Of a DNA stretch of 64,000 bases, positions 41,628 to 62,408 are shown piece by piece (positions within the stretch are counted from its first letter, which is position 1; every line of letters begins with the position of its first letter). The notes below the pieces were generated by a model, which had not been told where the DNA came from, did not search any database, and worked only from the letters and a program-made list of their open reading frames with translations. Source of the DNA: an uncultured Lachnospiraceae bacterium (lineage in GTDB: Bacteria > Bacillota > Clostridia > Lachnospirales > Lachnospiraceae). The translations under genes and the position numbers were made by a program. The stretch lies in the NCBI GenBank assembly GCA_947168905.1, contig CAMVNR010000001.1, positions 1-64,000 of the forward strand, read 5' to 3'.

Positions 41628-41658
41628 TGGTTTTCTCCTTTGATCTATAAACACGAAG

Positions 41659-44105: not shown

Positions 44106-44130
44106 TTTACCCCTCTTTCTATGAATAGAC

Positions 44131-45339
44131 TTATTTCTGAACTGCTGCTGTTTTCTTCCTGTCAATCAGAAGCTGAATTCCGAGAAGCAGGAGACCGCCG
44201 ACTGCAAGCACTCCGCCGAATCCGCAGAACATTCCCTGATAGCCGAACTCCTTGACAAAGAAGCTTCCGATGATCGGCGCGACCGCGTTTCCGACATTCT
44301 GTCCGATCATGACGGTCGAGGAAGCCACCCCGGAACGCTCCTTCGGGAGCTTTTTAACGGAATACGCCTGAATCGACGGCTGTCCGTTGCCCTGGCCAAG
44401 CGCCTTGAACACCGCTGCGGCGAGCATCATCCCAAGCGTCGACCCGATACCGACGAAGATCATCCCGAGCGCTGCGAAAACAAACGAAGGAATCAGGATG
44501 ACAAAGACGCCCTTCTTATCCAGAAGCTTGCCCGTAAACGGACGAATGACGATCAGGAAGATCGAATAGACCGTGAAGAAGACCGAAATATTCGCGATCT
44601 GCCGCTCATCCGCGATGATCGCAAGGTAGGTGCTGACCATGCCGTTTCCGGCGCTGAAAAGCGCTGCCATCAGCATGAAGCAGGTAAGCTCCGCCGCATA
44701 CAGATTCCGGAAGGAGAACTTTTTCTTCCCGGCACCGGCTGCGGGCTCCGGCTTCACATAGTGAAGCGGCAGAATGCAGGCGATGCAGACCAGCGGGAAG
44801 ATGCCCGCAATGAGGAATGTCAGCTGGAAGGAGCTGACTTCCACAAGCTTCAGGCCGATCGAGGGTCCCAAGGCCTGCGCTACAATCTGCGCAAGAGAAA
44901 TGAATCCGAGGCCTTCACCGGTCCTTTCCTTCGCGATAAAGGACGAAGCAAAGGCGATGTTGGTCACGCTGCAGACCGAGAAGAAAATCCCCGTCAAAAG
45001 CCGCATGATGATCAAAAGCGGAATATTCGTACAGACAGAATGCAGTACGAGGCAGATGCCGTAGCCCAGGTTTCCGAAGACCAGAATCCACTTCCGGCTG
45101 ATCTTGTCCGCAAGCATTCCCGCGAAGGGGCAGACGACCAGGGATACGAGAGACATCAAGCCTGCGACCGTCGAGGCAAGCGTCAGATCCGCCCCCAGCG
45201 AAAGCGCGTATTTCGCGACGAGCGGAACCGTCATCATACCCGCTACGCCGTTTAAAAGTGACATTGTTATCAGTAAAATAAATGTACCGTTCCAGAGCGG
45301 GACCTTTTTCCCCGCACCTGCTGCCGGCTGTGTGCTCAT
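44131..45339 (-). CDS. MFS transporter
   Basis: A 402-residue membrane protein with twelve predicted helices. The motif after helix 2 is GMLADKISRKWILVFGN (MFS motif A variant of GxLaDrxGrr), and the central loop between the halves carries KPEPAAGAGKKKFS. It most resembles drug/metabolite efflux or sugar-type MFS proteins, and direction cannot be told. Both the N-terminus (TQPAAGAGKK) and the central loop carry the same short PAAGAGKK peptide, an odd internal repeat. In this cluster it could export released acids or import a small substrate (inference). It follows the pseudo-esterase gene by 12 bases. Confidence 0.88.
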   Translation of the reverse strand: MSTQPAAGAGKKVPLWNGTFILLITMSLLNGVAGMMTVPLVAKYALSLGADLTLASTVAGLMSLVSLVVCPFAGMLADKISRKWILVFGNLGYGICLVLHSVCTNIPLLIIMRLLTGIFFSVCSVTNIAFASSFIAKERTGEGLGFISLAQIVAQALGPSIGLKLVEVSSFQLTFLIAGIFPLVCIACILPLHYVKPEPAAGAGKKKFSFRNLYAAELTCFMLMAALFSAGNGMVSTYLAIIADERQIANISVFFTVYSIFLIVIRPFTGKLLDKKGVFVILIPSFVFAALGMIFVGIGSTLGMMLAAAVFKALGQGNGQPSIQAYSVKKLPKERSGVASSTVMIGQNVGNAVAPIIGSFFVKEFGYQGMFCGFGGVLAVGGLLLLGIQLLIDRKKTAAVQK

Positions 45340-45351: not shown

Positions 45352-46215
45352 TTACAGCGCTTTTCTCTTCAGCGGAAGCATTTCGTCCAGCGCTTTCTGC
45401 AGATACTCGTTCCAGAGCTTAAAATCATGGTCGCCGCCCTCCACGAGAATAAATTCCAGGTTCAGCGGAAGCCTGCGCATTGCCTCAACATCCGCCTCGA
45501 CACGCTTGCGGATAAATTCCTCCGAGCCGAGAACAATCGTAAAATCAGGCATCCTGGTTCCGTTTTTCAGGTGACGCTCCGTCACGGCGCGAAGGTCGTA
45601 TTCGGAGCCGATAATCTCCTCCGACGGTCCGAAAGAAGTCCGGTACAGCGGGAACTGGTATTTGAAATGGTCGCTCTCGAGTTCCTCCGCGAGCGTTTCC
45701 GGACAGAAGGTCATTCCGATGCCGCCCGACATGTCGATACACGCCGCATACTTTTCCGGATGGTTGACCGCCATGCCAAGCGCCGCATTTCCGCCCATCG
45801 CGAAGCCCATGATAAAGTTGTCCTCACGCGCGGGCGACGACGGGAACAGGGTCTGAATCACCACCGGAAGCTCCTCGCAGACAAAATCCATATAACGGAC
45901 GCCGTAATGCGTGTTGATACCGAAGCTGTTCGTAATATCCGGCGTCACAAGCATCACATGATTCCGCTCTGCCGCCTCCTCGACATTGGAATAGCGGTAC
46001 GGAAGGGTGTCGTCATCCCCGCCGCCGTGGATCAGGTAAACCGTCTGGAATTTCATCCCTGTGCGGTACACCGCCTTTTCGTCCCTTCGGTCGACCGGAT
46101 TCGCATTTCCATGGAAGAAATCCGTTTCACAGCGGTAGTTGTTGGTCGGAATAACCACCGTCACGTCCACATAATGTCCGAGAAGCTCGGAGCGGTAATT
46201 GAATCTCAGTTTCAT
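45352..46215 (-). CDS. PF00756-type esterase homologue lacking the catalytic Ser
   Basis: A 287-residue protein of the putative-esterase fold. TVYLIHGGGDDD is the oxyanion region, VLGSEEFI the acid position and VEGGDHDFKLWNEYL the His, but the nucleophile elbow reads FIMGFAMGG with Ala139 (GCG codon) where family members have Ser (GLSMGG). One base change (TCG to GCG) would account for it. The rest of the fold is intact and the frame open. It is therefore probably a non-catalytic binding or regulatory homologue, or a recently inactivated enzyme. It has its own extended -10 promoter and GGGAGG site, and it precedes the MFS gene. Confidence 0.85.
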   Translation of the reverse strand: MKLRFNYRSELLGHYVDVTVVIPTNNYRCETDFFHGNANPVDRRDEKAVYRTGMKFQTVYLIHGGGDDDTLPYRYSNVEEAAERNHVMLVTPDITNSFGINTHYGVRYMDFVCEELPVVIQTLFPSSPAREDNFIMGFAMGGNAALGMAVNHPEKYAACIDMSGGIGMTFCPETLAEELESDHFKYQFPLYRTSFGPSEEIIGSEYDLRAVTERHLKNGTRMPDFTIVLGSEEFIRKRVEADVEAMRRLPLNLEFILVEGGDHDFKLWNEYLQKALDEMLPLKRKAL

Positions 46216-47277: not shown

Positions 47278-48147
47278 TCAGAACAGGTAGGGCAGGTAGT
47301 TCCAGACGTGATGGTACACCTCCTCATAGGCGTGCACCGCGTCTTCCTTGACCTCAAAATGCAGATTGCCCTTTTCGGGATCTTCGGAATACTCGAAGTA
47401 TTCCGGATATTTTTCCTTCATCGCCTGAAGCTGCGGGTCAAGGTTGTCAAAGCCCGCATCCTTCGAGCCGGTTCCGACGAAAAGCCGGAAGTCGTTCTTT
47501 GTAAAGCCGAGCGATTTTACCTTCTCCGCGAGAATATCCGCGGTCCGATCCGGCGCAAGCCTTCCGCCCATCGGCTGCACTGCCCAGCAGTCGCCGGACA
47601 TCGGAATGAAGTCCGCTACAATGTCAAGATGGGAAAGGAACACATACCAGGTGGTCGCGCCGCCCATCGAGAAGCCGCCGAATGCGCGGTGCTTCCGGGA
47701 CGCCTTCAGGCTTTCTTCCGTCACATTGCGTTCGGCATAGGTGTGATAGCGGCTTTCAATCAGCGGTACGAGATCTTCAGTGAATTCCTGCTGGAAGTGC
47801 TTCACGTTACTATCTTCCCAGGAGGCGTCGATTCCCTGAATCCTGGCCTGGGAGGGCGTCAGACTGTAGAAGGTCGGGAACACCACGATAAAGGGCTCGG
47901 CGAGCTTCTCATTGAAGGCGCGGTCCAGCGCGTTCTTGATCTGCGAGCAGTCGGTCCAGGCGTCCGGATTTCCGCCGCCGCCGTGCATCAGGTAAAGAAT
48001 ATTATAGGGCTTTGTATCGTCATAGCCATAGGGCAGGTAGACGAGCGCATATTTATACCAGGGCGTCCCCCCGAGATCCTTCGTCATATAATCGACCCGG
48101 ACGAGGCGTCCTCTGTAGTCCACATCCTTCCAGACATGAAGATTCAT
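47278..48147 (-). CDS. CE1/PF00756 feruloyl-esterase-like enzyme
   Basis: A 289-residue cytosolic esterase like the feruloyl-esterase domains of XynZ/XynY and the related DUF3327-type group. ALVYLPYGYDD, NILYLMHGGGGNPDAW (oxyanion), AFGGFSMGGATTW (Ser in GFSMGG), FVGTGSKDAGF (Asp) and the His in HAYEEVYHHVWNYL are all present. Three ATG codons occur in a row; the third (48147) has the best spacing to GGAGG, and the first is only one base from it. It starts 13 bases after the end of esterase-stalk paralogue 1. Confidence 0.9.
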   Translation of the reverse strand: MNLHVWKDVDYRGRLVRVDYMTKDLGGTPWYKYALVYLPYGYDDTKPYNILYLMHGGGGNPDAWTDCSQIKNALDRAFNEKLAEPFIVVFPTFYSLTPSQARIQGIDASWEDSNVKHFQQEFTEDLVPLIESRYHTYAERNVTEESLKASRKHRAFGGFSMGGATTWYVFLSHLDIVADFIPMSGDCWAVQPMGGRLAPDRTADILAEKVKSLGFTKNDFRLFVGTGSKDAGFDNLDPQLQAMKEKYPEYFEYSEDPEKGNLHFEVKEDAVHAYEEVYHHVWNYLPYLF

Positions 48148-48160
48148 CATCATCCCTCCT

Positions 48161-49681
48161 TCATTTCTTCTTTACAAAACTTCCGATAAAGGAATAATCC
48201 TCAGGCATCACGGTTCCTTTGAAAATATCCTTGATGAGGTCCGCCATGAAGCAGGAAAGCTCCGCGAAATGATCCGTCACATAGACCACCTCATTGCAGA
48301 CCGATACATGCAGGTTATAAAGGAAGCGGCAGAACCATTCGACGGAGACGAGAAGCTCGTTTTCCCGGTGCAGGGCTTCGCAGTACATCTGCCGCATCGT
48401 GTCGTCGACCACGCAGGCAATCGAGCCCCGCGCAAACTGCAGTTCTCTTCCGTCCGGAAGGGTCATTTCGGCGCTCAGTCTGTCCTCGGACGGGCGGTAT
48501 TTCGCGCCGAACATTTCCGCGAGGAACGAAAGAGGCACACAGAGATAGTCTCCGCGTACGATCTTTCCGCCGTTTAAGCCGTGATATTTCAGTTTCTGCC
48601 ACTGCACAGGGGAGGCTTTAAGCTCCCGTACGCTGTTCTTAAACCAGACCTTCGGAACACCGGCCGTGAAAGCCGCCGCGAAAGCGTCGCCTTTCCTTTT
48701 GAGGATTCCCTCGCCCGAGATGACCGTTCCATCCGGGTTTTTACGCACGCCCGAGAAGAGGTAATCCCAGTACAGAAAAGCCTCATCCAGCGTCTGTCCG
48801 TGGTCGCGGTTCTTGATGTCCACATAGACAAGGTCCGCTTTTTTGCCTTTGAAGAAAGCGAAATTGTCCTCTCCGACAATCGAAATCTCCGGAACTTCGG
48901 CGCATTCATTCACCTTCATCCAGTAGGCGCGCGACATTTTATTCGCGGTGAATTCGTCATATACCTTTCCCGGAGGAAGTCCGTTCACCTCCGGCCGGGA
49001 CTCCCAGATCGCCATCGGCCCGCCGAAGTTTAAAACTTCTCCGTCTTCCGTGAAAAGCTTGTCGGGCTGCGTCGGTCCGCCGGAGCCGGCGGCGCCGGCG
49101 AGCATGTGCCCGTAATACTTGCAGAACTGCTGGGTCATGAGATTGCCCATCGACATGCCCTGCATGAAGATGCGGCCGGGATCGATATTGTAATCCGCCT
49201 GCATTTTCTCAATCAGGCCCTTCACCATGTTCAGGTCGTGGTTTTCCCGGTAATCCGCAGGGGCGAGTGCGATCGGCAGTCCCTCGACGTCCTCTTCGGA
49301 AAGACCGTCGAACACGCCCTCTACAGTCCACATTCTGGCCTTGTGCGCATCCGGGAAAGCGCAGATGAAGCCCTCGCGGTCCGCAACGTAACACCAGGAG
49401 GTGTAGATGCTGTGGCCCCATCCGGTCATTAAGCCTCCGTGCAGCCCGATAATGAGCGGCACCGGCTTCGAGCCGTCGTACTTTTCAGGGACGTAGACAT
49501 AATACCGATCCGTCAGTCCGTCCGCAAGCACTGCCGTACATTCTTTAAGACGCGCGGGATACGGGCGGGAATTGTTGCCGTTCTCGTTGACGACAATGTC
49601 GGAGCCCCGGATGGATTCCGGCAGGTAGTCCCGGTTATCGTCATCCGGTGTCCCAGGAAGCAGCTTTAAAACCGTTTTCAT
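48161..49681 (-). CDS. Esterase-stalk paralogue 1 (PHB-depolymerase-like plus CuAO-N-like domain)
   Basis: A 506-residue cytosolic protein and one of five close paralogues. It opens with the conserved signature PGTPDDDNRDYLP and GSDIVVNENGNNS. The alpha/beta hydrolase core spans about 55-310: PLIIGLHGGLMTGWG (oxyanion), FMQGMSMGNLMT (Ser177) and IKNRDHGQTLDEA (His294), as in PHB depolymerase/LpqC-like esterases. The C-terminal part (about 375-500) resembles a copper-amine-oxidase-N (stalk) domain: VPLSFLAEMFGAKY, LPDGRELQFARGS, LLVSVEWFCRFL and VVYVTDH. Stalk domains are normally outside the cell, yet no signal peptide is present. The start at 49681 has AAAGGGGAT upstream. It is separated from paralogue 2 by a serine hydrolase gene. 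Confidence 0.82.
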   Translation of the reverse strand: MKTVLKLLPGTPDDDNRDYLPESIRGSDIVVNENGNNSRPYPARLKECTAVLADGLTDRYYVYVPEKYDGSKPVPLIIGLHGGLMTGWGHSIYTSWCYVADREGFICAFPDAHKARMWTVEGVFDGLSEEDVEGLPIALAPADYRENHDLNMVKGLIEKMQADYNIDPGRIFMQGMSMGNLMTQQFCKYYGHMLAGAAGSGGPTQPDKLFTEDGEVLNFGGPMAIWESRPEVNGLPPGKVYDEFTANKMSRAYWMKVNECAEVPEISIVGEDNFAFFKGKKADLVYVDIKNRDHGQTLDEAFLYWDYLFSGVRKNPDGTVISGEGILKRKGDAFAAAFTAGVPKVWFKNSVRELKASPVQWQKLKYHGLNGGKIVRGDYLCVPLSFLAEMFGAKYRPSEDRLSAEMTLPDGRELQFARGSIACVVDDTMRQMYCEALHRENELLVSVEWFCRFLYNLHVSVCNEVVYVTDHFAELSCFMADLIKDIFKGTVMPEDYSFIGSFVKKK

Positions 49682-49694
49682 ACCCTGATCCCCT

Positions 49695-50864
49695 TTATTC
49701 TTCCGAAAGCGCCTCATATACGAGGTCTCTCAGCGTCGGATGAATTTCTGCATAGGATTTGATCATTCCGAGCACCTGCTGGCCGTAGTAGATCGAAATA
49801 TGGTTAAAGGGATCGATCAGGGCGTATGCGCCGGCTGCGCCGTCCCAGCCGAATTCGCCGACCGGAGACTTCGCTCCCTCCGGGCCGATATAGACGCGCA
49901 TGCCAAGGCCGTAGCCGTAGCCAATGCGCATTCCCTGCTGGAACTCAAGCACCTGCTCCGGGGTCAGCCTGTTTTTCGTAAATTCAAGGACGGATTCTTC
50001 CTTCAGGATTCTGTTCCCGGTCGCGCCGACACCGCCGCAGGCGAGGGCATCGAGAAGCTTGCTGTACTCGTCGACCGAAGTCGTTACGCCCGCGCCGCCG
50101 CTCTCGTAATTCTCCGACAGCCGGAACGCGTTTCCTTCCTGGCGCGTCATCTCCTGCGTGACCATGTTAAGACTGTACTGCGCCGCCAGCCGGTAGGCTT
50201 CGGACTTCGGCACCTGGTACCAGATTTCCTTCATCCCGAGGGGTTCAAAGATATTCTTCTTCATATATTCGCCGAAGGTCATCCCTGAGACGACCTCGAC
50301 AACTCCCGCCAGCACGTCATGCGCCAGAGAGTACATATAATGAGTATTCGGCTCGTAGAGGAGGGGAGTCTTTGCAATCGCCTTCATAAATTCGCGCGTC
50401 GACCCCTGACGGTTGGTCTTCTCCTGAAGTTCCCTGATCGGCTCGGAATTGATATCATAGCCAAGTCCGGCGGTCATGGACATCAGATTCCAGATTTTGA
50501 TCGGATTGACGGCCTTTTTCGTCGCGGTTTCCCTCGTCGGCATCACCATCGGCCAGCCGAATTTGAAGTCCGGATCATAGTACATTTCCGCAAATTCCGG
50601 CAGGAATTTCGTCAGCTCGTCATCGAGGCTGATTTCGCCCCGCTCCACAAGCTGCATCACGGCGGTCATCGTCGCGATTTTCGACATCGAGTAAATATCA
50701 TACAGATCCGTCTGGGAAACCGGTTTCGTTTTCGCGTAGTCATTGTATCCGGTCATATGCCTGTAAATCGTTTCATGGTCCTTCTGGACCTTGCAGTCGA
50801 CGGCGGGAACGCCGTACTTTTCCTCAAGGGAATCAAGGTATACGGTTACTTTTTCAAAATTCAT
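49695..50864 (-). CDS. EstB-like serine hydrolase (class-C beta-lactamase fold)
   Basis: A 389-residue hydrolase. The SxxK motif is Ser59-Met-Ser-Lys62 (IYSMSK), the Tyr motif is YSLAHD, and the third motif region reads GEFGWDGAAG, the usual WGG/HTG equivalent of esterase-type members. No signal peptide. It is shorter than the other two serine hydrolases in the window and belongs to a different subgroup, closer to EstB/PBP4* esterases. The start at 50864 follows GGAGGTG. It has its own promoter (50886-50914) and interrupts the array of esterase-stalk genes between paralogues 1 and 2. Confidence 0.88.
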   Translation of the reverse strand: MNFEKVTVYLDSLEEKYGVPAVDCKVQKDHETIYRHMTGYNDYAKTKPVSQTDLYDIYSMSKIATMTAVMQLVERGEISLDDELTKFLPEFAEMYYDPDFKFGWPMVMPTRETATKKAVNPIKIWNLMSMTAGLGYDINSEPIRELQEKTNRQGSTREFMKAIAKTPLLYEPNTHYMYSLAHDVLAGVVEVVSGMTFGEYMKKNIFEPLGMKEIWYQVPKSEAYRLAAQYSLNMVTQEMTRQEGNAFRLSENYESGGAGVTTSVDEYSKLLDALACGGVGATGNRILKEESVLEFTKNRLTPEQVLEFQQGMRIGYGYGLGMRVYIGPEGAKSPVGEFGWDGAAGAYALIDPFNHISIYYGQQVLGMIKSYAEIHPTLRDLVYEALSEE

Positions 50865-50885
50865 GCGAGTCACCTCCATGGTTAA

Positions 50886-50914
50886 AGCATAGCTTCTTTA
50901 TGTGAAATTGTCTA
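50886..50914 (-). promoter_or_regulatory. Internal promoter before the EstB-like gene
   Basis: -35 TAGACA (50909-50914), a 17-base spacer and -10 TATGCT (50886-50891) on the minus strand. A weak GACTGT/ACAGTC hairpin followed by TTTTT lies just upstream, after paralogue 2, suggesting a transcript boundary inside the array. Confidence 0.5.
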
Positions 50915-50980
50915 TGAAAAACATTCGAATCATTTATAAAAATCTCGTGACTGTCTTTTCTTCCTAATACAGTCCGGATT

Positions 50981-52510
50981 TCAGCGGCACATGCCGATCG
51001 CTTCGTAGTCCGGGTATTCTCCGCCGTTTTCCAGCGCTTCCGTCAGGATGTCCGCCATGTACAGTGACAGTTCGTTAAAATGATCCGTCGCGTACAGGAC
51101 GCCGCCGCATTCGGAAACATGGAGGTTAAACAGATACCGCAGGAACCAGGCCACCGGGACCAGAAGCTCGCACTCGCGATACAGCGCTTCGCAGTACATG
51201 GAACGCAGGTCCGAATCGATCATGCAGGCGATCGAGCCTTCCGCGAACTGCAGTACTCTTCCGTCCGGAAGCGTCATGCGCACCATACGGTTATCGCGCT
51301 GTGATTCGTACTTTGCCCCGAACGCCTCCGAAAGATACGAGAGCGGAACCATGAGGTATTCGCCGCGGACCTTCGCATCGCCGTCGAGCCCGTGGTATTT
51401 CAGCTTCTGCCATAGGAGCGCCTTCGCGGGCATCGGCTCGATCCGGTTATTATGCCAGGCGTTCCTCTTCCCTTCCGCAAAAGCCAGCGAGAAAGCGTCG
51501 CCCTTACGCGTGCGATTGCTTTCCAGCCGTTCAATCGTGCCGTCTTCATTTCTCCGAAGTCCGGAGAAGAAATAGTTCCAGACAAGCGCCGCATCGTCGA
51601 AGGTCTGCCCGTGGTCGCGGTTCTTGATGTCCAGATACACGACGTCGCCCTTTTCCCCTTTGTAGAAGGCGAAATTGTTCTCGCCGACGATACTGATCTG
51701 CGGCACCGGATCACAGCCGTCCAGCTTCATCCAGTAGTACTTGTTCATGCGGTTCACATACTTCTGAAGCTCCGTGTCCTCCGGAACATTGTTTCTCTCC
51801 GGCCGGCTCTGCCATACCGGGACCGGGCCGGCGGTGTTTTTGATGTTCCCCTCTTGATCATACAGGACAGAGAGGAAGGTCGCGCAGGCCGAGCCCGCGG
51901 CGCCGGCTAAGATATAGCCCTTGTGGCGCGCAAACATGGCAGTCATCATATTGCCCATCGACATGCCCTGCATATAAATGCGGCCGCGGTCAATGTTGTA
52001 CTTTTCTGAGAGCCGTTCGATGAGCGCGCAGGTGAAATTGATGTCCCGGTTTTCCCGGATATCCTCCGGTGAAGCGTCGAGGTTCGGAGGAATGTTCTCG
52101 GAGCCTTCGCCGCTCTCCTTCTCGTCATACAACCATTTGCCCCATTCATCCGCCCAGAGGCGGTTCTTCGAAGCGTCCGGGAAGACCGCGATAAAGCCGT
52201 GCTGCTCGGCCATCAGCGACCAGGAGGTGTAAATGCACTGGCCCCAGCCGGTCATTAAGCCCCCGTGCATCGAAATCACGAGGGGTGTTTTCTTCTCAGG
52301 GTCGTAGCTTTCCGGAACATATTCGTACCAGGTGCCGGGATGCCCGTCATGAAGAAGGTCCTCGTGATGCTCCGTAAGCCGCTCCGGGTAAGGCTGGGAA
52401 TTATTGCCGTTCTCATTGACAACGATATCCGAGCCCTTGATTTTTTCCGGCAGGTAATCCCGGTTGTCATCGTCCGGCGTACCGGGAAGAAGGATCCATT
52501 CGTTATTCAA
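50981..52510 (-). CDS. Esterase-stalk paralogue 2, TTG start
   Basis: A 509-residue paralogue with the same two domains. The best start is TTG at 52510 (NNEWILLPGTP...), 8 bases after GGAGGTG; it gives an N-terminus that lines up with the other copies. The first eight bases lie inside the end of paralogue 3, so translation is coupled. The frame stays open to 52588, but that extension is only the overlapping coding sequence of paralogue 3. Motifs: LVISMHGGLMTGWGQ, YMQGMSMGNMMT (Ser nucleophile), IKNRDHGQTFDDA (His); stalk-like part VPLSYLSEAFGAKY, LPDGRVLQFAEGS, LLVPVAWFLRYLF, VLYATDH. No signal peptide. Confidence 0.82.
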   Translation of the reverse strand: MNNEWILLPGTPDDDNRDYLPEKIKGSDIVVNENGNNSQPYPERLTEHHEDLLHDGHPGTWYEYVPESYDPEKKTPLVISMHGGLMTGWGQCIYTSWSLMAEQHGFIAVFPDASKNRLWADEWGKWLYDEKESGEGSENIPPNLDASPEDIRENRDINFTCALIERLSEKYNIDRGRIYMQGMSMGNMMTAMFARHKGYILAGAAGSACATFLSVLYDQEGNIKNTAGPVPVWQSRPERNNVPEDTELQKYVNRMNKYYWMKLDGCDPVPQISIVGENNFAFYKGEKGDVVYLDIKNRDHGQTFDDAALVWNYFFSGLRRNEDGTIERLESNRTRKGDAFSLAFAEGKRNAWHNNRIEPMPAKALLWQKLKYHGLDGDAKVRGEYLMVPLSYLSEAFGAKYESQRDNRMVRMTLPDGRVLQFAEGSIACMIDSDLRSMYCEALYRECELLVPVAWFLRYLFNLHVSECGGVLYATDHFNELSLYMADILTEALENGGEYPDYEAIGMCR

Positions 52511-54041
52511 AGTCCTCACCTCCAAGCCAGTTGATTTTCCGTGCGCGAGCGAAGTCTTCCGGCACTGCGCGGTCCATGAGAAGATCAAGAATCAGGTCCG
52601 CGAGGAAGTACGAAAGCTCTGCGTGGTGGTCGGTCACATAGATCATGTCATGACATTCCGAGACGCAATATCCGAAAAGATACCGCATAAACCACTCGGC
52701 GGAAACCAAAAGTTCTCCGTTCCTGTGAATCGCCTCGACGTACATCTGGCGCATAGAGTCATTGATGAAGCAGCCGATGGAGCCTCTGGCAAACTGCAGT
52801 TTCCTGCCGTCCGGAAGGATGACGTCCGCGTGAAGGCCGTCTTCCTGGGATGTGTACTTCGCGCCGACAGCCGCCGCGAGATCCTTTACCGCGACCATCA
52901 GATATTCGCCCCGGACCTTCTGTCCGCCCTCCAGACCGTGGTATTTCAGCTTCTGCCATTTTACAGGCGCCTCAGAAAGCCTGACGATTCGCTGATCTGC
53001 CCAGGCCTTGTCCGCACCCGCGGCAAAGGCGAAGGAAACGCGGTCTCCCTTCCTTTCGGTAATGCTGCCCTCGTCGACGATCGTACCGTCCGGAAGCCGC
53101 CGGAGTCCCGAGAGGAAATAGTCCCACTGCAGGAAAGCTTCATCGAGATTCTGGCCGTGATCCCGGTTCTTGACGTCCATGAAGACAAGCGGTGCTTTTT
53201 TGCCCTTGTAGAAAGCGAAATTATCTTCGCCGATCACGCTGATCTCCGGGACCGGATCCACTTCGTTGATTTTCATCCAGTAGACCCGGTTATATCGGTC
53301 GATATCCGCTTCTTTCGGGAAATCACGCATCCCGAAGCCGTTGTTTTCGGGCCGGGTCTGCCAGATTCCCAGGGGTCCGCCCTGGTTCATGAGCTTTCCT
53401 TCCTCGTCAAAGAGCAGGGAAAGACTTCCCGGGCCGGCGGATCCGGCCGCGCCTGCGAGAATATTTCCATAATAACGCGAGAAGAGCGCAGTCATCATAT
53501 TTCCGGCCGACATGCCCTGCATGAAGATCCGGCCTTCGTCGATATTGTATTTCTCTTTCAGAAGCCCGAGAAGCGCAAGGACAAAATTGCAGTCCCTGTG
53601 ATCCTCAATCCTTTCAGTCGGGTCCGGAAGCGGCAGCCCCGCCACCTGTTTATTATACTCGCTCTCCAGTGACGGCATCTGCTCCCAGAAACGCTTGTTG
53701 TGCGCGTCGGGGAAGACGACAATAATGCCGTCCCGGTCCGCCACATAACTCCAGGAGGTGTAAATGCACTGGCCCCAGCCCGACATAATTCCGCCGTGCA
53801 TCGAGAAGACGAGCGGCGTTTTCTTCGAAGGATCATAGCTTTCCGGGACATATTCATACCAGCTGTCCTCTCCCTGCCCCGGAACAAGCTCCGCATGAAA
53901 CTCCTTCAGGCGCTCGGGATAGGGCTGGGAATTATTTCCGTTCTCATTGACGACAATGTCGGAGCCCTTGATGCGCTGCGGCAGATAGTCGCGGTTGTCA
54001 TCGTCCGGCGTACCGGGTCTAAGGTAAAGTTCACGATTCAT
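52503..54041 (-). CDS. Esterase-stalk paralogue 3
   Basis: A 512-residue paralogue. The N-terminal signature PGTPDDDNRDYLP and GSDIVVNENGNNSQPYP is perfect. Hydrolase motifs are LVFSMHGGIMSGWGQ, FMQGMSAGNMMT (Ala for Met after the nucleophile Ser) and VKNRDHGQNLDEA. The C-terminal stalk-like part reads VAVKDLAAAVGAKY, LPDGRKLQFARGS, LLVSAEWFMRYLF and MIYVTDHHAEL. The end of the gene contains the ribosome site and start codon of paralogue 2. An attenuator-like hairpin precedes it (54064-54104). No signal peptide. Confidence 0.82.
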   Translation of the reverse strand: MNRELYLRPGTPDDDNRDYLPQRIKGSDIVVNENGNNSQPYPERLKEFHAELVPGQGEDSWYEYVPESYDPSKKTPLVFSMHGGIMSGWGQCIYTSWSYVADRDGIIVVFPDAHNKRFWEQMPSLESEYNKQVAGLPLPDPTERIEDHRDCNFVLALLGLLKEKYNIDEGRIFMQGMSAGNMMTALFSRYYGNILAGAAGSAGPGSLSLLFDEEGKLMNQGGPLGIWQTRPENNGFGMRDFPKEADIDRYNRVYWMKINEVDPVPEISVIGEDNFAFYKGKKAPLVFMDVKNRDHGQNLDEAFLQWDYFLSGLRRLPDGTIVDEGSITERKGDRVSFAFAAGADKAWADQRIVRLSEAPVKWQKLKYHGLEGGQKVRGEYLMVAVKDLAAAVGAKYTSQEDGLHADVILPDGRKLQFARGSIGCFINDSMRQMYVEAIHRNGELLVSAEWFMRYLFGYCVSECHDMIYVTDHHAELSYFLADLILDLLMDRAVPEDFARARKINWLGGEDFE

Positions 54042-54063
54042 AAGCTTTTCTCCTAAGTAAAAG

Positions 54064-54104
54064 GCTTTCCCGGGCCGGGACGTGGGTTCCAGACCCGGGA
54101 AAGC
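54064..54104 (-). terminator. Attenuator-like hairpin between paralogues 4 and 3
   Basis: GCTTTCCCGGG (54064-54074) pairs perfectly with CCCGGGAAAGC (54094-54104), and a CTTTTA tract follows on the minus strand just before the ribosome site of paralogue 3. It would lower expression of the downstream copies. Confidence 0.6.
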
Positions 54105-54121
54105 AAAAGTGCCATATACTG

Positions 54122-55606
54122 TTACTGTTCGAGAATGTCCTCAATGAGCGCTGCCGTATGCACTGCAAGCTCAATGTAGTGGTCGGTGATATACAGAACA
54201 CCGCGGTTTTCGGAGGTGAAGCACTTCATGAGCCTGTGGAAGAACCATTCGACCGGAAGGCAAAGAGCGCCGTCCCGGATCACAGCCTCGCAGTCCATCG
54301 AATAAATCTTGTTGTCGATCACGCAGCCGATCGAGCCCTGCGCAAACTCCACAACGCGCTTATCCGGAAGCACGAGAACCGCCGTGCGTCCGTCCGCAGC
54401 CATATCGCACTCCGCGCCGATGGCCTGCGCGAGGAAGGAAACCGGAGCGTAGAAGTATTCGCCGCGTACCAGTTCTCCGCCGTCGAGACCGTGGTATTTC
54501 AGCTTCTGGTGCTTAAAGGCCGGAACCTGAAGCCGTACAGGCTTCGAATTCACCAGCGCATTTTCCTTGCCGAGGGCAAGCGCGATGCCGAAGCTGTCGC
54601 CCTTTCTCGGAAGCTTTGTGCCGCCCTGTACGATCTCTCCGTTTTCGTCCCGGCGGATTCCGCTGAAGCAGTAATCCCAGACGAGCTCCGCGTCATCGAG
54701 CGTCTGGCCGTGGTCGCGGTTTTTGATCACGCGCAGCGTGAAATTCGCCTTCTTGCCGGTATAGAAGAAATAGTTGTCCTCGCCCTCGAGCATGATCTCG
54801 GGAAGAGCGGTGCAGTCATTGACGGAAGTCCAGTAGTGAACCGCGTTTTTAACGCCTTCAATGTCTTCACGGGAGCGGTCGGGGTTCTTGTCGAAGCCAT
54901 TGAATTCGGGCATGCTGATAAAGCCCGAAATCGGTCCGTGCTCCGAAGGATCCGCGTTCTTCACGCCGCGGGGAGCCCCTGAAGGTGCGCCGGCGGTCGC
55001 AAAGCCCGCAAACTTCTCGCCAAAATAGTGCACCATCATTGATGTCATCATGCCGCCCATCGACATGCCCTGCACAAAAATGCGGCCCGGATCGATATTG
55101 AAACGAGACTTGCAGTTTTCAATCAGTGCGAGCACCTGGCCGCAGTCCGGGCCGTCCACGAAGGAATCCTGGATCTTCGGAAGCGGCATGCCGCCGGGGC
55201 CTTCCTTAAGCTCCGTACCATCCGCGAACTTCGGCCGGCCTTCCCAGACATTCCAGAACTTGTGCTCATGCGCGTTGGGGAAGACGACGATAAAGCCTTC
55301 GCGGTCTGCGACATAGGTCCAGGAGGTGTAAATGCACTGGCCCCAGCCCGACATTAAGCCGCCGTGAAGCGCTACGACAAGCGGTGTCTTCTTCTCAGGG
55401 TCATACGTGTCCGGGACATATTCGAACCAGGTGTCCTCTTCGTCTCCGAAAAGGATTTCGTGCTTTTCCACGAGGTTCTTCGGATGCGGCTGGGAGTTGT
55501 TGCCGTTCTCATTGACAACGATATCGCTGCCGAAAATTGATTCGGGCAGGTAGTCGCGGTTCGCATCGTCCGGTGTGCCCGGGCGCAGGAAAATCTTACC
55601 TTCCAT
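54122..55606 (-). CDS. Esterase-stalk paralogue 4
   Basis: A 494-residue member and the most divergent of the five. PGTPDDANRDYLP has Ala for the third Asp, the nucleophile elbow is FVQGMSMGGMMT (Gly where the others have Asn), and the middle region lacks the WESRPE-type segment in favour of FISMPEFNGFDKNPD. The His motif IKNRDHGQTLDDA is unchanged. The stalk-like part is APVSFLAQAIGAEC, LPDKRVVEFAQGS, LCLPVEWFFHRLM and VLYITDH. It may have a different substrate. The ATG follows AGGAGAAAACATC. No signal peptide. Confidence 0.82.
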   Translation of the reverse strand: MEGKIFLRPGTPDDANRDYLPESIFGSDIVVNENGNNSQPHPKNLVEKHEILFGDEEDTWFEYVPDTYDPEKKTPLVVALHGGLMSGWGQCIYTSWTYVADREGFIVVFPNAHEHKFWNVWEGRPKFADGTELKEGPGGMPLPKIQDSFVDGPDCGQVLALIENCKSRFNIDPGRIFVQGMSMGGMMTSMMVHYFGEKFAGFATAGAPSGAPRGVKNADPSEHGPISGFISMPEFNGFDKNPDRSREDIEGVKNAVHYWTSVNDCTALPEIMLEGEDNYFFYTGKKANFTLRVIKNRDHGQTLDDAELVWDYCFSGIRRDENGEIVQGGTKLPRKGDSFGIALALGKENALVNSKPVRLQVPAFKHQKLKYHGLDGGELVRGEYFYAPVSFLAQAIGAECDMAADGRTAVLVLPDKRVVEFAQGSIGCVIDNKIYSMDCEAVIRDGALCLPVEWFFHRLMKCFTSENRGVLYITDHYIELAVHTAALIEDILEQ

Positions 55607-55630
55607 GATGTTTTCTCCTCTTTCTCAAAT

Positions 55631-57187
55631 TTATTTTGCTGCAATCGGCGGCAGGTCATCGCTCGTGAAGTATTTCTGTCTTTCCATGATTTCCTGCTCC
55701 GTGAACTCCAGTTCATAGCGGCCGTTCAGAAGGTCCTTCAGAAGGTCCGCCGTAAAATAGGACAGCTCCGCCCAGTGGTCGGTCACATAGGCCGCCCCGT
55801 TATGGACGCTGACATTCCAGTTGAAGAAGCAGCGCGAGAACCACTCGAGGCTCAGCATCAAAACGCCGTCCCTTTCGATGCATTCGACATACATCTGGCG
55901 CATCGTATCTCCGATCATGCAGCCGATGACGCCTCTCGCGAACTGCAGCCGCCGTCCGTCCGGGAGACGGATTACGCCGCTTAGGCCCTCCTCCGAGGTC
56001 TCATAGCTTCCGCCCGCGATTTTTGCAAGCGCCTCCGCCGGAACCATCAGATACTCGCCCCGGACCTTCGCACCGCCGTTTAAGCCGTGGTATTTCAGTT
56101 TCTGCCAGAAAAGCGGCGCATGGGAAAGCGGCAGGATTTCACCGTTATAAAGCATGCTCGGCGCGCCCTCTGCAAAAGCTGCCTGAAAATCATCCCGCTT
56201 TAAGGGGAGTCTTGTCGGTCCCTGTTCAATCGTTCCGTCGGCTTTTCTTCGTAAGCCCGAGAAGAAGTAATCCCAGTACAGGAACGCTTCGTCCAGCTTC
56301 TGGCCGTGGTCACGGTTTTTGATGTCGTGGAAGACGAGGTTCGCCTTCTTTCCGTGGTAGAAGGCGAAATTGTCCTCGCCGACAATGGAAATCTCGGGAA
56401 CCGGGCAGGCTTCGTTGATCTTCAGCCAGTACCAGCGGCCCATCTTGAAATTCAGCGCTTCCCCTTCGTAGTCGCCTTCGAACTGGTTATGCTCGGGGCG
56501 CGCCTGCCAGACTGCGACGGGTCCTGCGGCGTTTCGGATCGTCCCGTCCTTCTCGAATAATGCGCAGGGCCAGGTCTGCGCGCCGGCACCCGCAGCCCCC
56601 GCGAGGAGATTTCCATAGTAACGCGAGAACTGGTGCGTCATGAGGTTGCCCATGGACATGCCCTGCATGAAAATGCGCTCGGGGTCGATATTGTATTTCT
56701 CCTGCATCGCACGGATCAGCGCGAGAAGCAGGTTCAGATCGTGATTCTCCCGGAAATCCGCCGGGGCATGTTTCACCCGGATGCCGTCGATCTCGGTCGG
56801 ACCGCCGGACTCATACATGCCCTCGACCTGCCAGAAACGAAGCTCGGACGCTGTCGGGAAGACCGCGATCAGTCCTTCCCTGTCCGCAACCAGCGGCCAG
56901 GAGTTGTAGCAGCACTGCCCCCAGCCGGTCATCAGCCCTCCGTGAAGGGAAATCACGAGCGGCACCTTTTTCGAGCCGTCATAGCTTTCGGGGACATATT
57001 CGTACCAGGTATCTTCCTTCCCGTCCCCGACGATATCGCCGTGGAATTCCTGCAGTCTTTCCGGGCAGGGGATGGAATTGTTGCCGTTCTCATTGACAGT
57101 GATGTCCGAACGGTAGAGGTATTCGGGAAGATAATGTCTGTTGTCATCGTCCGGGCGTCCCGGACGGATTACCGGCTGGATATTCAT
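55631..57187 (-). CDS. Esterase-stalk paralogue 5
   Basis: A 518-residue member with PGRPDDDNRHYLP and SDITVNENGNNSIP at the N-terminus. Hydrolase motifs: LVISLHGGLMTGWGQ, FMQGMSMGNLMTHQF (Ser) and IKNRDHGQKLDEA (His). Stalk-like part: VPAEALAKIAGGSY, LPDGRRLQFARGV, LMLSLEWFSRCFF and AAYVTDHWAEL, then a longer tail of about 25 residues. It is the first copy to be transcribed, 107 bases after the type-B carboxylesterase, in the operon that begins with importer 2. No signal peptide. Confidence 0.82.
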   Translation of the reverse strand: MNIQPVIRPGRPDDDNRHYLPEYLYRSDITVNENGNNSIPCPERLQEFHGDIVGDGKEDTWYEYVPESYDGSKKVPLVISLHGGLMTGWGQCCYNSWPLVADREGLIAVFPTASELRFWQVEGMYESGGPTEIDGIRVKHAPADFRENHDLNLLLALIRAMQEKYNIDPERIFMQGMSMGNLMTHQFSRYYGNLLAGAAGAGAQTWPCALFEKDGTIRNAAGPVAVWQARPEHNQFEGDYEGEALNFKMGRWYWLKINEACPVPEISIVGEDNFAFYHGKKANLVFHDIKNRDHGQKLDEAFLYWDYFFSGLRRKADGTIEQGPTRLPLKRDDFQAAFAEGAPSMLYNGEILPLSHAPLFWQKLKYHGLNGGAKVRGEYLMVPAEALAKIAGGSYETSEEGLSGVIRLPDGRRLQFARGVIGCMIGDTMRQMYVECIERDGVLMLSLEWFSRCFFNWNVSVHNGAAYVTDHWAELSYFTADLLKDLLNGRYELEFTEQEIMERQKYFTSDDLPPIAAK

Positions 57188-58908: not shown

Positions 58909-59718
58909 TCAGGGCTTTCCCGCTAAAAGGAAACGGATGCATTCTTCAAAATGGTCCCGCCAGGCTGTAAAGTCATGCGGTCCTTCGACTTCATGATACT
59001 CCATCGGCGCTTCCTGTTCCCGAAGGAACTCAACGAAAGCCCGGTCTCTTTCCAGCAGGAAATCCTGCTTTCCGCAGATAATATATAAAGGCGTCAGCCT
59101 TTCGCCGTTTTTCTTCAGTTCCTTCAGAAGATAACGCGGGTTATTCACGCTTGTCCCGATCTTCTTCGGATCGCCGAAGGTCTGCCGGTAATAGTAATAA
59201 TCCGCCATCGGATTCCTGTCCTCCGGCGTCATGTTTTCCATCCCGTCCGTCAGGATCGCCGGAGACATCGCAAAGGCGCGCTCGAATTTCTCCGGATAGT
59301 AATAGGCTGCGCGGATCGCGCCGAAGCCGCCCATCGAACATCCGCCGACGAAATTATGCTCTCTCTCGAGAGGAAGACCGAGCGAGCGATGCAGGTACTC
59401 CGGTAGCTCTTCAAAGATATAGGAACCGAAACGGTTTGTATTGGCCTCCCCGTCCACATAAAAGCTTAAATCCCCGTAAGGCATGACAATCGCGATATTG
59501 TAGCGCTCGGAGAAATCCCGCACATAGGTCATATTGGCCCATTCCGAATTGTCGTTGCTGTAGCCGTGGAGAAGATACAGCACCTTCATCGGGCGCTCGT
59601 AATGCTCGATCCCTGCCCGCAGCTTCTCGTATTCATTCTTGTCATTCGGCAGTTCGACTTTAACGTTGGAAACTCTGGAATTGACTTCGGAACGAAAAGA
59701 TATGTCATAAAAAGCCAT
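58909..59718 (-). CDS. PF00756-type esterase, first gene after importer 2
   Basis: A 269-residue cytosolic esterase. VLYLLHGYSNDNSEW (oxyanion), FVGGCSMGGFGAIR (nucleophile Ser in GCSMGG; Cys precedes it), IICGKQDFL (Asp) and VEGPHDFTAWRDH (His). It is similar in size and order to the enzyme at 41706-42494. It follows the binding-protein gene after a hairpin of eleven base pairs, so it should be made at a lower level from the same transcript. Its position suggests it acts early on the imported compound (inference). Confidence 0.9.
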   Translation of the reverse strand: MAFYDISFRSEVNSRVSNVKVELPNDKNEYEKLRAGIEHYERPMKVLYLLHGYSNDNSEWANMTYVRDFSERYNIAIVMPYGDLSFYVDGEANTNRFGSYIFEELPEYLHRSLGLPLEREHNFVGGCSMGGFGAIRAAYYYPEKFERAFAMSPAILTDGMENMTPEDRNPMADYYYYRQTFGDPKKIGTSVNNPRYLLKELKKNGERLTPLYIICGKQDFLLERDRAFVEFLREQEAPMEYHEVEGPHDFTAWRDHFEECIRFLLAGKP

Positions 59719-59819: not shown

Positions 59820-61397
59820 TTATTTCGATGCAAGCCATGCATCAAGCTGTTTCTGCTTCTCGGCGATGATTTCGTCAATGCCGGCGTTTTTCAGCTCCTG
59901 CTGGAACACAGGAAGCACTTCGTCGATATCAACTTCGCCGTTCATGATCGGATTGTAATACTGTGCAATGACGTTTGCGCAGGCTGCGTACTGGTCCGCT
60001 ACCGGAGACAGGTCGCAGGTGAAGCCGAGCGCCTTCGAGGGAATTGCAGCGGCATTGTCGGCAACCATAAGATCATTTGCTTCCTTCAGCTGGTAATCCC
60101 AGGTCGGAGCAAGGAAGTCGTTGGGGTTCACATAGGAGTAGCCTACCGACCATCCTGCGGAGGTCGCGTCGGTTGCGCCGTTGACGTAGCAGGCCTGGCC
60201 GTCGTCGTTGATGCCGTAGGTGAGACCCAGAACGCCGTCGGTGAAGATCGTAGCGATTTCAGGGTCGGTGTACAGGCAGTTCAGTACACGCATCGCGGCT
60301 TCCTTATCCTTGCAGAAGGAGGTTACATGCCACAGGTAGGTGTTGATGTTGCCGGTGGTGAGAAGTCTCTCGCCGATCTCGCAGCCGGTGATGTTTGCGC
60401 CGTACTGCTGGGAAGCGTTGGCTTCGTGAATGGTATTGGTCATGTTGTAGCCGTAGCCGGGCGTACCGTAAGTGATTCTGGTCTGGAAAGACAGCAGGGT
60501 CGGGCTCTGGTTCGACATGGCATCCGGAGAGATGATTTCTTTTTCCTTCCAGATCTTAACGTTCTCAAGGAAGTTTAAGAAATAATCGGATTCATAGTAG
60601 TTTTCGACTGTGGTACTGTTGACGGGATCCATCAGGCAGCCAAGGTAATTGGTATCGCCGAGGTAGTCGATGCTCTTCGGTACCCAGTAGGGTTCAGTTG
60701 CGCCGGGGATGAAGTACTTGTCGGGGTTGTTCTCTTTCATAACGACAAGCGCTTTGGTCAGATCGTCAACGGTATGAACCTGGGAAAGGTCAACGCCTTC
60801 AGCAACTTCTTCGGTGCAAAGGTAGATGTTCGGAGAAGACCATGCGGTGAAGCTCGGAATTCCGTAGAGCGTTCCGTTGATGCGGCCGCAGTCCAGAACT
60901 TCCTGATAAGGTGCGTACAGTTCTTTGATGCCCTGTCCGGAAGTCTCCAGAAGCTCATCCAGAGGAGCAAGCTGGCCATTGGCAACCAGCTGGCCGAGAG
61001 ATGTGTACCAGAAGGAGCTCAGGATATCCAGAGAATCCTCGCCGCCCGTTAAGAGCAGGTTCAGCTGTGTCACCATATCACCGAAAGGAACCCAAACGAA
61101 TTCGACTTCAGCCTGTGCCTTTTCGCGCAGCTTTTCGTTTAAGGCAGCCTCAACCTCTGCCGCATGTGTCGGCGGCTCGCCGGTGAAGGTGCTCATGTTC
61201 ATACGAAGCTTCGGATAGCTTCCGTCGGATTCCGGAGCCGGAGTCGCATCATCTGCTTTTTCTGTGCCGGCTTCCTGGGTGCCCGCTTCCTCAGTCTTCG
61301 GTGCTTCGGTGGTGGTGTCGTTTCCGGCCGGCTTTGTGCAGGCTGCAAGAGACAGAACCATTACAAGCGCAAGAACGAGTGCCAGTAATTTCTTCAT
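59820..61397 (-). CDS. Extracellular sugar-binding lipoprotein (importer 2)
   Basis: A 525-residue binding protein. The signal peptide ends in LSLAAC with lipidated Cys20, nearly identical to that of importer 1, and is followed by a Thr/Glu/Ala-rich linker of about 40 residues and the two-lobed domain (PKLRMNMSTFTGEPPT start, ELKNAGIDEIIAEKQKQLDAWLAS end). The C-terminal tail closely matches that of the importer 1 protein (AGIDDIVADYQAQLDAWL). Gene order differs from importer 1: here the binding protein comes last, after both permeases. Confidence 0.92.
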   Translation of the reverse strand: MKKLLALVLALVMVLSLAACTKPAGNDTTTEAPKTEEAGTQEAGTEKADDATPAPESDGSYPKLRMNMSTFTGEPPTHAAEVEAALNEKLREKAQAEVEFVWVPFGDMVTQLNLLLTGGEDSLDILSSFWYTSLGQLVANGQLAPLDELLETSGQGIKELYAPYQEVLDCGRINGTLYGIPSFTAWSSPNIYLCTEEVAEGVDLSQVHTVDDLTKALVVMKENNPDKYFIPGATEPYWVPKSIDYLGDTNYLGCLMDPVNSTTVENYYESDYFLNFLENVKIWKEKEIISPDAMSNQSPTLLSFQTRITYGTPGYGYNMTNTIHEANASQQYGANITGCEIGERLLTTGNINTYLWHVTSFCKDKEAAMRVLNCLYTDPEIATIFTDGVLGLTYGINDDGQACYVNGATDATSAGWSVGYSYVNPNDFLAPTWDYQLKEANDLMVADNAAAIPSKALGFTCDLSPVADQYAACANVIAQYYNPIMNGEVDIDEVLPVFQQELKNAGIDEIIAEKQKQLDAWLASK

Positions 61398-61520: not shown

Positions 61521-62408
61521 TTATCCCTTTACAGATCCTAAGGTAACGCCCTTGACAAAGGACTTCTGGAAGAACGGATACACGATCAGCACCGGCAGTA
61601 CGCCGACAACCGCAAGCGCCATCCGGATACCGACCGACGGGATCTGCGATGCGTCGACATTGATGCCCTTCGACACCTGCTGCTGCAGCACGGTAATGCT
61701 GTCGAGAACGCGCTTCATGTAGTTCTGGATGCCCAGAAGGTCGGTTCTCTTCTGAATGTAGTAAACACCGTTGGTCCAGTTGTTCCAGTAAGCGATGAAG
61801 GTCATCAGGCCAAGCGTGCCCATAATCGGCTTGCAGAGCGGGATAACGATGCGGATCAGGCAGGTCAGTTCGCTCGCGCCGTCAATCCGGCCGGCTTCGA
61901 TGATTTCATCGGAGATATTCGAAGTAATATAGGTACGCATCATGATGACGTGGAAGGCGTTCATCAGCATGCTCGGAATGATCATTCCCCACAGGGTGTC
62001 CTTGATGTTTAAAAGTCTCGTATACACGATGTAGGTCGGAACAAGGCCGCCGTTGAAGAGCATCGTGAAGAAAAGGAAAAAGGAAATGATATTCCTTCCC
62101 GGAAGGTCTTTCCTCGAGAGCGGATAAGCGTAAAAGGTCGTCATCACAAGAGAGGTGGTCACGCCGATTGCCGCAATGATGACGCTCATCAGGTAGGCGC
62201 GCGCCACGCCGTCCGATACCGCTGCGAGATATCTGTACGTGTCAAAGGTAATCTGTTTCGGAATCAGTGAATAACCCGAATCAAGGAGCACCGACTCCGG
62301 CGTGAAGGAGCTCGCGATCAGAAGCCAGAACGGAATGATGCAGGCTACGATCAGGAGAAACACGAAGACATACTGAACTACGATAAACGCTTTATTATTT
62401 GTAATCAT
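61521..62408 (-). CDS. LplC/YtcP-type sugar ABC permease (importer 2)
   Basis: A 295-residue permease with six helices, the EAA loop IIEAGRIDGASELTCLIRIVIPLCKPIM and the C-terminal VYPFFQKSFVKGVTLGSVKG tail typical of the group. It pairs with the LplB-like protein encoded 18 bases upstream. The AGR in place of AAR in the EAA loop is a small departure from importer 1. The 123-base gap to the binding-protein gene has no strong hairpin. Confidence 0.93.
   Translation of the reverse strand: MITNNKAFIVVQYVFVFLLIVACIIPFWLLIASSFTPESVLLDSGYSLIPKQITFDTYRYLAAVSDGVARAYLMSVIIAAIGVTTSLVMTTFYAYPLSRKDLPGRNIISFFLFFTMLFNGGLVPTYIVYTRLLNIKDTLWGMIIPSMLMNAFHVIMMRTYITSNISDEIIEAGRIDGASELTCLIRIVIPLCKPIMGTLGLMTFIAYWNNWTNGVYYIQKRTDLLGIQNYMKRVLDSITVLQQQVSKGINVDASQIPSVGIRMALAVVGVLPVLIVYPFFQKSFVKGVTLGSVKG

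Follow-up and report, generated by a model that had tools for sequence, protein, structure and literature searches.

A row of homologous genes in an uncultured Lachnospiraceae bacterium, each joining an esterase-like part to what reads like a stalk domain, raises the question of what such a fusion does and on which substrate. The DNA analysed (the window) is a stretch of 64,000 nucleotides, and the five homologous minus-strand open reading frames that an earlier note had placed at 48161-57187 were found there. The name E500 is given here to the copies of this esterase with a C-terminal stalk-type domain (c1-c6).

Copies and domain architecture of E500

The window copies, all on the minus strand, are c1 (48161..49717, a predicted CE1-like esterase with a C-terminal stalk-type domain, for which ATG 49681 is a possible alternative start), c2 (50981..52510), c3 (52503..54041, the copy used for the structure model), c4 (54122..55606, the most divergent) and c5 (55631..57187, a further esterase-stalk paralogue). 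For c2 the likely start codon is TTG 52510, preceded by a GGAGG sequence, rather than 52588, giving an 8-nt overlap with c3. Copies c2-c5 are 46-56% identical to c1, with 141 invariant columns in the five-copy comparison. The row of five stood up to analysis; its description as an uninterrupted tandem of five did not, as a beta-lactamase-family (PF00144) serine hydrolase of the family-VIII-esterase type (49695..50879, minus strand) separates c1 from c2, and the total is six, with c6 at contig positions 66912-68447, just past the window end. The GMSxG elbow and the NRDHGQ histidine motif were found in all five window copies and are also present in c6. The proposed common N-terminal signature, PGTPDDDNRDYLP, is exact in c1-c3 and slightly altered in c4 (PDDANRDYLP) and c5 (PGRPDDDNRHYLP). 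The suggestion that c4 has a changed elbow was not upheld: GMSMG is identical in c1, c2, c4 and c5 and the following residue alone differs (G versus N). With Ser, Glu and His all intact, c4 was ruled out as a catalytic variant.

The c3 model (pLDDT 90.6) had as its best solved match the Aspergillus enzyme AoAXEB (Z 25.2, 2.4 Å, 242 residues), followed by PHB depolymerase and feruloyl esterases. The N-terminal part of E500 is thus, as modelled, an alpha/beta-hydrolase serine esterase with a CE1-like fold. Residues 42-318 share this fold with CE1-type and PHB depolymerase esterases (8daj, 9j07, 8iy8 and 3wyd; Z 19-25), together with the GxSxG nucleophile and the histidine. Unlike those enzymes, E500 carries a strongly conserved N-terminal segment (10-41), a stalk-type C-terminal domain and a predicted Glu acid, is without a signal segment and scores below the curated NCBIfam cut-offs. 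Ser178 (GMSxG) and His295 (RDHG) are invariant in 45 of 45 aligned family members, and both are intact in all six copies of the window genome. Position 232, at the strand end where the usual acid stands, is Glu in 43 of the 45 and Asp in two; from motif and strand position we infer Glu232 as the catalytic acid. The best of the five copies reached 67.6 bits for TIGR01840 (cut-off 107.85) and 92.2 bits for NF050058 (cut-off 150). For PF10503 Esterase_PHB (gathering cut-off 23), scores were 21.7 for c2, 22.4 for c4 and 27.5 for c6, with no match in c1, c3 or c5; at E <= 1e-3 this profile matched 20 of the 45 aligned members.

The earlier note had also proposed a separate C-terminal domain of the copper-amine-oxidase-N type, and fold comparison favours it. 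The C-terminal domain of c3 (52506..53039, minus strand), modelled alone, matched domain D1 (the stalk) of E. coli copper amine oxidase with Z 10.2 over 77 residues at 2.6 Å. The D1 matches overall gave Z of about 10 (2.2-2.6 Å, 76-78 residues), against Z 4.9 for the next unrelated chain, and Foldseek ranks 1-18 were all E. coli copper amine oxidase (best E 3.9e-3). A sequence search of the domain against solved structures gave nothing convincing; fold comparison alone matched. At E <= 1e-3, PF07833 Cu_amine_oxidN1 matched five places in the window genome, all of them E500 copies, with c5 unmatched, and 19 of the 45 aligned members; in single-protein scans it matched c2, c4 and c6 alone, and just c4, the top scorer, exceeded the curated cut-off, which it did in both the genome search and the single-protein scan, the remaining copies being borderline or unmatched. 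As modelled, the C-terminal part of E500 has the fold of the copper-amine-oxidase stalk domain D1. It differs from that domain in being fused to an esterase, in its predicted cytosolic location and in family-specific invariants such as KYHG (366-369). No paper on an esterase-stalk fusion was found in the open-licence literature, and within that scope no characterized enzyme of this layout turned up, as had been supposed.

The claim that all copies are cytosolic was supported by a hydropathy scan. An 11-residue hydrophobic stretch (mean > 1.6) upstream of the motif was detected in just one of 101 family sequences, versus 17 of 20 solute-binding-protein controls; three of the 104 family sequences, without the regex motif, were left out. 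The E500 proteins are accordingly predicted to be cytosolic, without a signal peptide.

Gene neighbourhood, ancestry and GH13_18 linkage

The surrounding island, unseen in the earlier note, points to a function. The window copies c1-c5 lie in a same-strand run of 18 genes that extends from 63350 down to 39258 with gaps of at most 123 nt. Upstream of c5 are ABC permeases A (62427..63350) and B (61521..62408), the DUF3502-type solute-binding lipoprotein (SBP) of an ABC importer (59820..61397), a PF00756 esterase (58909..59718) and a carboxylesterase (PF00135; 57295..58842), the last two by profile match. The permeases are 73% (A) and 60% (B) identical, and the lipoprotein 50% identical, to those of the island at locus L027. 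Downstream of c1, after 7 nt, follow a PF00756 esterase (47278..48153), a polysaccharide-deacetylase-family protein (PF01522; 46324..47193), a second PF00756 esterase (45352..46215; profile match), an MFS transporter (44131..45339), a beta-lactamase-family serine hydrolase (42603..44165), a third PF00756 esterase (41706..42536) and, as the last gene of the run, a 798-residue carboxylesterase and GDSL acylhydrolase fusion (39258..41654). All are on the minus strand. Promoter-like sites showed no excess (12 observed versus 12.0 in shuffles).

The E500 family is rare: one scan of GTDB species genomes yielded 43 loci, in Bacillota, Chloroflexota and Actinomycetota. In a quick tree (111 rows; support by SH-aLRT only, with several long branches, c6 included), each window copy was joined by supported branches to copies of other genomes. 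The copies thus fall into separate old orthologous groups, and recent tandem amplification was ruled out. The idea that five tandem copies imply diversification is better restated: the paralogues are ancient, and other genomes have orthologues of them. Distant relatives of about 550 residues, 22-27% identical and of different layout, occur at L019, L020, L040, L041 and L055; they served as outgroup only.

Besides E500, the islands encode further esterases, an ABC-type importer and regulators of the YesMN type. Across the 43 loci, PF00756-type esterases were counted in 26, permeases in 24, a kinase in 20, beta-lactamase-family proteins in 20 and an SBP in 18. A GH13_18 enzyme was present in 20 loci, or 24 when four found solely by follow-up blast are added. 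In Lachnospiraceae NK3A20, which like Herbinix hemicellulosilytica is a cultured carrier, every island part lies within about 30 kb, and at L024 up to ten esterase-type genes occupy a locus of ~22 kb. Glycoside hydrolases were absent from all 20 neighbours scanned singly and from the listed families (25 of 117) matching at least two of 77 neighbours, a scan in which single-member Pfam matches fall outside the listing, so that a rare glycoside hydrolase may escape.

The linked GH13_18 clade, defined at >=60% identity, was present in 29 of 38 E500-positive genomes, while among 149 other family genomes and 398 phylum genomes it occurred in none, the genomes counted not being independent samples. 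It was missing from nine of the 38; any GH13_18 was found in 37 of them versus 17 of the 149. The association also appeared within genera. E500 and the linked clade occurred in the same two of 49 genomes in the genus of G177, and in the genus of G170 the clade occurred in five of 58 genomes, all five among the six with E500. All seven genomes of the two genera with the clade thus have E500 (7/7 versus 1/100).

Loop A fingerprints of GH13_18 sucrose phosphorylase and its relatives are described in PMC7178133 and PMC6720575. The relatives' island enzymes, such as the one at L027:15850-17310, resemble solved sucrose phosphorylases (7qqj), aligning nearly end to end (E about 1e-151); unlike GH13_18 sucrose phosphorylase, the linked clade is without the loop A motif N(L/V)D(I/L/V)YQ, so that its acceptor may not be fructose. 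Of 20 parsed island enzymes, 19 lacked this motif (18 of 18 of the linked clade, and L021), and it was kept in eight of nine parsed enzymes of E500-negative relatives (nine of the 15 loci L059-L073, six that failed the pattern being dropped), L062 being the exception. Loop A of the island clade matched no published fingerprint, except KFQYYQ of L033, which fits the strict sucrose-6F-phosphate phosphorylase (SPP) type, KXXYYQ. L048 has an NLDIYQ enzyme (the sucrose-phosphorylase motif) beside E500 and the same transporter (84% for permease A, 72% for permease B and 62% for the SBP, relative to L027).

The linked clade is absent from the window's own genome (95% complete). The sole GH13_18 enzyme detected there (3229..4893, minus strand) has, like that of L021, a KNMYYQ-type loop A, which fits the strict-SPP pattern, and its best solved match was IcSPP (6s9u, E 5.6e-171). 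A distance of 34 kb separates it from the esterase run, which leaves its connection to the run putative.

Proposed pathway and alternatives

On the favoured reading, the island would bring an acylated alpha-glucoside, probably esters of sucrose, into the cell for deacylation in the cytosol and subsequent phosphorolysis, a scheme that we consider about evenly balanced between right and wrong. The DUF3502 SBP and two permeases, under YesMN-type two-component control, would take up a small acylated sugar, the direction of transport being presumed. Several E500 paralogues and the PF00756, PF00144, PF00135 and PF01522 esterases would then strip the acyl groups, each probably specialized for one position or one kind of acyl group. 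A GH13_18 phosphorylase would split the alpha-glucoside thus released, in all likelihood sucrose or something closely analogous, to give glucose 1-phosphate. This last step is drawn from the relatives' islands; the window genome has just the distant SPP-type gene, so that for this genome the sugar core is putative. A precedent for imported, cytosolically de-esterified sugars is the Xua system of Ruminiclostridium cellulolyticum (XuaH, XuaJ), which likewise combines an importer, a two-component system and cytosolic esterases acting on imported acylated sugars (PMC11127375). Xua itself pairs two esterases with four glycosyl hydrolases that act on arabinoxylodextrins; E500 islands differ in having a phosphorylase of GH13_18 together with as many as ten esterase-type genes, and backbone glycosyl hydrolases were not found among the neighbours covered by the two scans above.

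The same pathway might act on an alpha-glucoside core other than sucrose, such as an acylated glucosyl-polyol or a sugar with an acidic group recognized through the altered loop A. The loss of the sucrose-phosphorylase motif in 19 of 20 island enzymes, against its retention in eight of nine E500-negative relatives, speaks for such a core, as do the glycerol- and glycerate-specific GH13_18 members described in PMC7178133; we nevertheless regard it as somewhat unlikely, since L048 pairs the same transporter with NLDIYQ while L021 and the window have KNMYYQ, both sucrose-related motifs. Cytosolic de-esterification of imported hemicellulose oligosaccharides (acetylated or feruloylated xylo- or manno-oligosaccharides) would accord with the nearest folds, acetyl xylan and feruloyl esterases, and with the esterases, importer and two-component system of Xua (PMC11127375). 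It appears unlikely, because no backbone glycoside hydrolase recurs nearby among the families listed and the recurring sugar enzyme is GH13_18.

A broad cluster for scavenging or detoxification (of xenobiotics or esters of plant phenolics), not built around any one sugar core and with the phosphorylase as a passenger, was judged improbable: many unrelated esterase families adjoin in the window, and MFS and MATE transporters lie near several islands, but E500 and the GH13_18 clade occur together within genera (7/7 versus 1/100), and this, along with the conservation of a sugar-type importer and of YesMN regulators, argues against it. That these are intracellular or secreted PHB depolymerases is scarcely credible; the weak NF050058, TIGR01840 and PF10503 matches would fit, yet all NCBIfam matches are below curated cut-offs, a signal-like segment occurs in just one of 101 sequences and the island content is unrelated to PHB. 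PHB depolymerase proper was rejected on the scores and the island content.

Returning to sucrose esters, the islands may, on a tentative reading that is less likely than not, form a bacterial pathway devoted to acylated sucrose (sucrose polyesters): an importer, position-specific cytosolic esterases of the new esterase-stalk architecture and a GH13_18 clade of new specificity, transferred between phyla as a unit. A bacterial route for acylated sucrose was not found in the open-licence literature.

Sugar esters from plants and food reach gut and rumen bacteria. The findings suggest that a gut or rumen bacterium with an E500 row lives on ester-covered sugars, probably sucrose. An odd domain fusion thereby becomes a testable pathway, in which E500 would put the copper-amine-oxidase stalk fold to use in the cytosol and the linked GH13_18 clade offers an undescribed acceptor-loop motif. 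As paralogous carbohydrate esterases, the E500 copies may provide a ready toolkit for removing acyl groups regioselectively.

Architecture and predicted fold of the E500 copies

Five paralogous ORFs of 494–535 aa were found at 48161-57187 on the reverse strand (46–56% identity to copy 1). They belong to the family termed E500, an esterase joined to a stalk-type C-terminal domain. The earlier note had described five tandem paralogues; the five ORFs (c1–c5) stand, and the array is interrupted by a beta-lactamase-family gene between c1 and c2 and continued past the window by a sixth copy (contig 66912-68447). The contig stops shortly after copy 6, at 68506, so that the surrounding gene island is possibly cut. 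The likeliest start of c2 is a TTG at 52510 with GGAGG ahead of it.

Copy 3 was modelled with AlphaFold2 from an alignment with 44 relatives (pLDDT 90.6). Residues 42–318 matched acetyl xylan esterase B from Aspergillus oryzae best (Z 25.2, 2.4 Å, 242 residues), followed by a PHB depolymerase and feruloyl esterases. The C-terminal part, modelled alone (pLDDT 90.7), resembled domain D1, the 'stalk' domain, of Escherichia coli copper amine oxidase (Z 10.2, 2.6 Å, 77 residues), and rows 1–18 of a Foldseek search were all this enzyme (best E 3.9e-3). The closest unrelated chain reached Z 4.9. The fold comparison as a whole thus favours the separate stalk-like domain on which the earlier note had staked its proposal.

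Ser178 and His295 were invariant in 45/45 family members; the catalytic acid is likely Glu232 (Asp in two of the 45), assigned from motif and strand position only. Equivalents of all three residues are kept in the six copies of this genome. The N-terminal segment 10–41 was the most conserved part (10/32 columns invariant, compared with 34/293 in the catalytic part and 10/156 in the C-terminal part). A search for a signal-like segment across the family found none in 100 of 101 sequences.

In a single scan across the species genomes of GTDB, 43 E500 loci were identified, distributed over Lachnospiraceae, Oscillospiraceae, Paenibacillaceae, Anaerolineae and Actinomycetota; divergent members are missed because the query consisted of two N-terminal peptide patterns. 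E500 occurs rarely: the only positive genome among 150 of the bacterial family, and again among 398 of the phylum, was that of the window itself. In a quick tree (111 rows, most branches starred) the window copies split into separate groups with copies from other species. Chloroflexota hold both c1-type and c2-type copies, which argues for old paralogues that have either moved as a group or been retained side by side.

Gene run and island composition

Copies c1–c5 are part of a run of 18 same-strand genes (63350 to 39258, gaps of at most 123 nt). The run also contains importer genes for a solute-binding protein (SBP; 59820-61397, reverse strand) and permeases (61521-63350, reverse strand), six PF00135/PF00756/PF01522-type genes, two beta-lactamase-family genes, an MFS transporter and a carboxylesterase–GDSL fusion (39258-41654, reverse strand; one 798-aa ORF, PF00135 plus GDSL acylhydrolase). 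The transporter at 59820-63350 is of the island kind (permease A 73% against the island of the relative's locus L027). A second DUF3502-type SBP with permeases (28297-31904, reverse strand), adjoining a YesMN-type pair (32782-36080), is less like the island importer (permeases 44–53%, SBP 29%). Apart from the six copies, 15 esterase/acylhydrolase-type genes exceeded a curated cut-off over the contig stretch from 7.3 to 68.4 kb, some of the families counted (e.g. PF00326, PF02129) including peptidases too. One 965-aa ORF (7320-10217, reverse strand) combines an X-Pro dipeptidyl-peptidase/S15-type domain with a BD-FAE esterase domain.

Clustering of ORFs over the 43 loci, counted by locus, gave a PF00756-type esterase (26/43), two permeases (24/43 each), a histidine kinase (20/43), a response regulator (19/43), GH13_18 (20/43), a beta-lactamase-family protein (20/43), a DUF3502-type SBP (18/43), a 373-aa hydrolase (14/43), MFS (13/43), polysaccharide deacetylase (7/43) and carboxylesterase (6/43). 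GH13_18 was missed by clustering in four more loci, two of these cut by the locus end. All island parts lie on one contig in isolate NK3A20 (about 51–81 kb). No recurring glycoside hydrolases were found among the island neighbours (20 scanned singly; 77 scanned, among families listed with at least two matches). The same islands contain proteins of about 550 aa (L019:7536-9194, L020:16404-18080, L040:5644-7299, L041:8333-9970, L055:15398-17059) in which a PHB-depolymerase-type domain is preceded by an extra hydrolase-like N-terminal region of about 250 residues; those of L019 and L041 carry the usual acid motif, GTRD, and a stalk domain search of that from L055 gave no match.

Linkage to GH13_18

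The 38 E500-positive genomes were drawn from 40 loci, of which 39 lay in genomes covered by the search, one genome carrying two; L034, L045 and L050 fall outside the 40, their records belonging to genomes already represented. Searched with the L027 enzyme (L027:15850-17310), 37/38 contained a GH13_18 and 29/38 one at least 60% identical to the query (the linked clade). Among other family genomes any GH13_18 was present in 17/149 and the linked clade in 0/149 (best 54%), and none of 398 phylum genomes reached 60% (best 57%). Fisher p-values for the association (about 1e-26 and 1e-24) are illustrative only because the genomes are kin, and contrasts within genera are cleaner evidence. In the genus of Actinomyces ruminicola E500 and the linked clade occur in the same 2/49 genomes; in that of Mediterraneibacter massiliensis the linked clade occurs in 5/58 and E500 in 6/58, all five being among the six. 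Genome G661 of the latter genus, without a locus in the first scan, carries both on a single contig, separated by about 5 kb. In the remaining E500 genome, G180 (locus L048), a canonical-motif sucrose phosphorylase (NLDIYQ; L048:3578-5026) occupies the usual place of the divergent enzyme, next to the same importer.

Loop A has been published as the specificity fingerprint of GH13_18 (PMC7178133, PMC6720575). The sucrose-phosphorylase motif was absent from loop A in 18/18 parsed linked-clade enzymes and retained in 8/9 parsed E500-negative relatives. The linked clade is absent from the window's own genome, whose only detected GH13_18 (3229-4893) is of the strict sucrose-6F-phosphate type and lies 34 kb from the 18-gene run; a serpin gene (695-2104, reverse strand; PF00079, E 1.2e-76) adjoins it. 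The E500-positive genomes of L015, L022, L052 and L056 also lack the linked clade and have only a long strict-SPP-like enzyme (35–38% to the L027 query, open frames of 567–620 aa).

Proposed pathway

The importer would take up a small acylated alpha-glucoside, cytosolic esterases would strip its acyl groups and GH13_18 would phosphorolyse the freed alpha-glucoside to glucose 1-phosphate. This scheme is suggested by the occurrence of an importer, cytosolic esterases and one phosphorylase without recurring glycoside hydrolases. The large number of esterases agrees with a substrate that bears several acyl groups. A like logic is followed by the Xua system of R. cellulolyticum (PMC11127375), with hydrolases where E500 islands have a phosphorylase. 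Three GH13_18 types were found in E500 islands or genomes; a sucrose core is favoured because two of them bear sucrose-related loop motifs, and caution is needed because the third has an altered loop A. The chances of the pathway acting on acyl-sucrose appear about even. The esterase architecture of E500 is real and conserved, has apparently not been described before, and lies in a recurring island that is putatively devoted to acyl-sugar catabolism; E500 quite probably removes ester groups in the cytosol from an imported acylated sugar of some kind.
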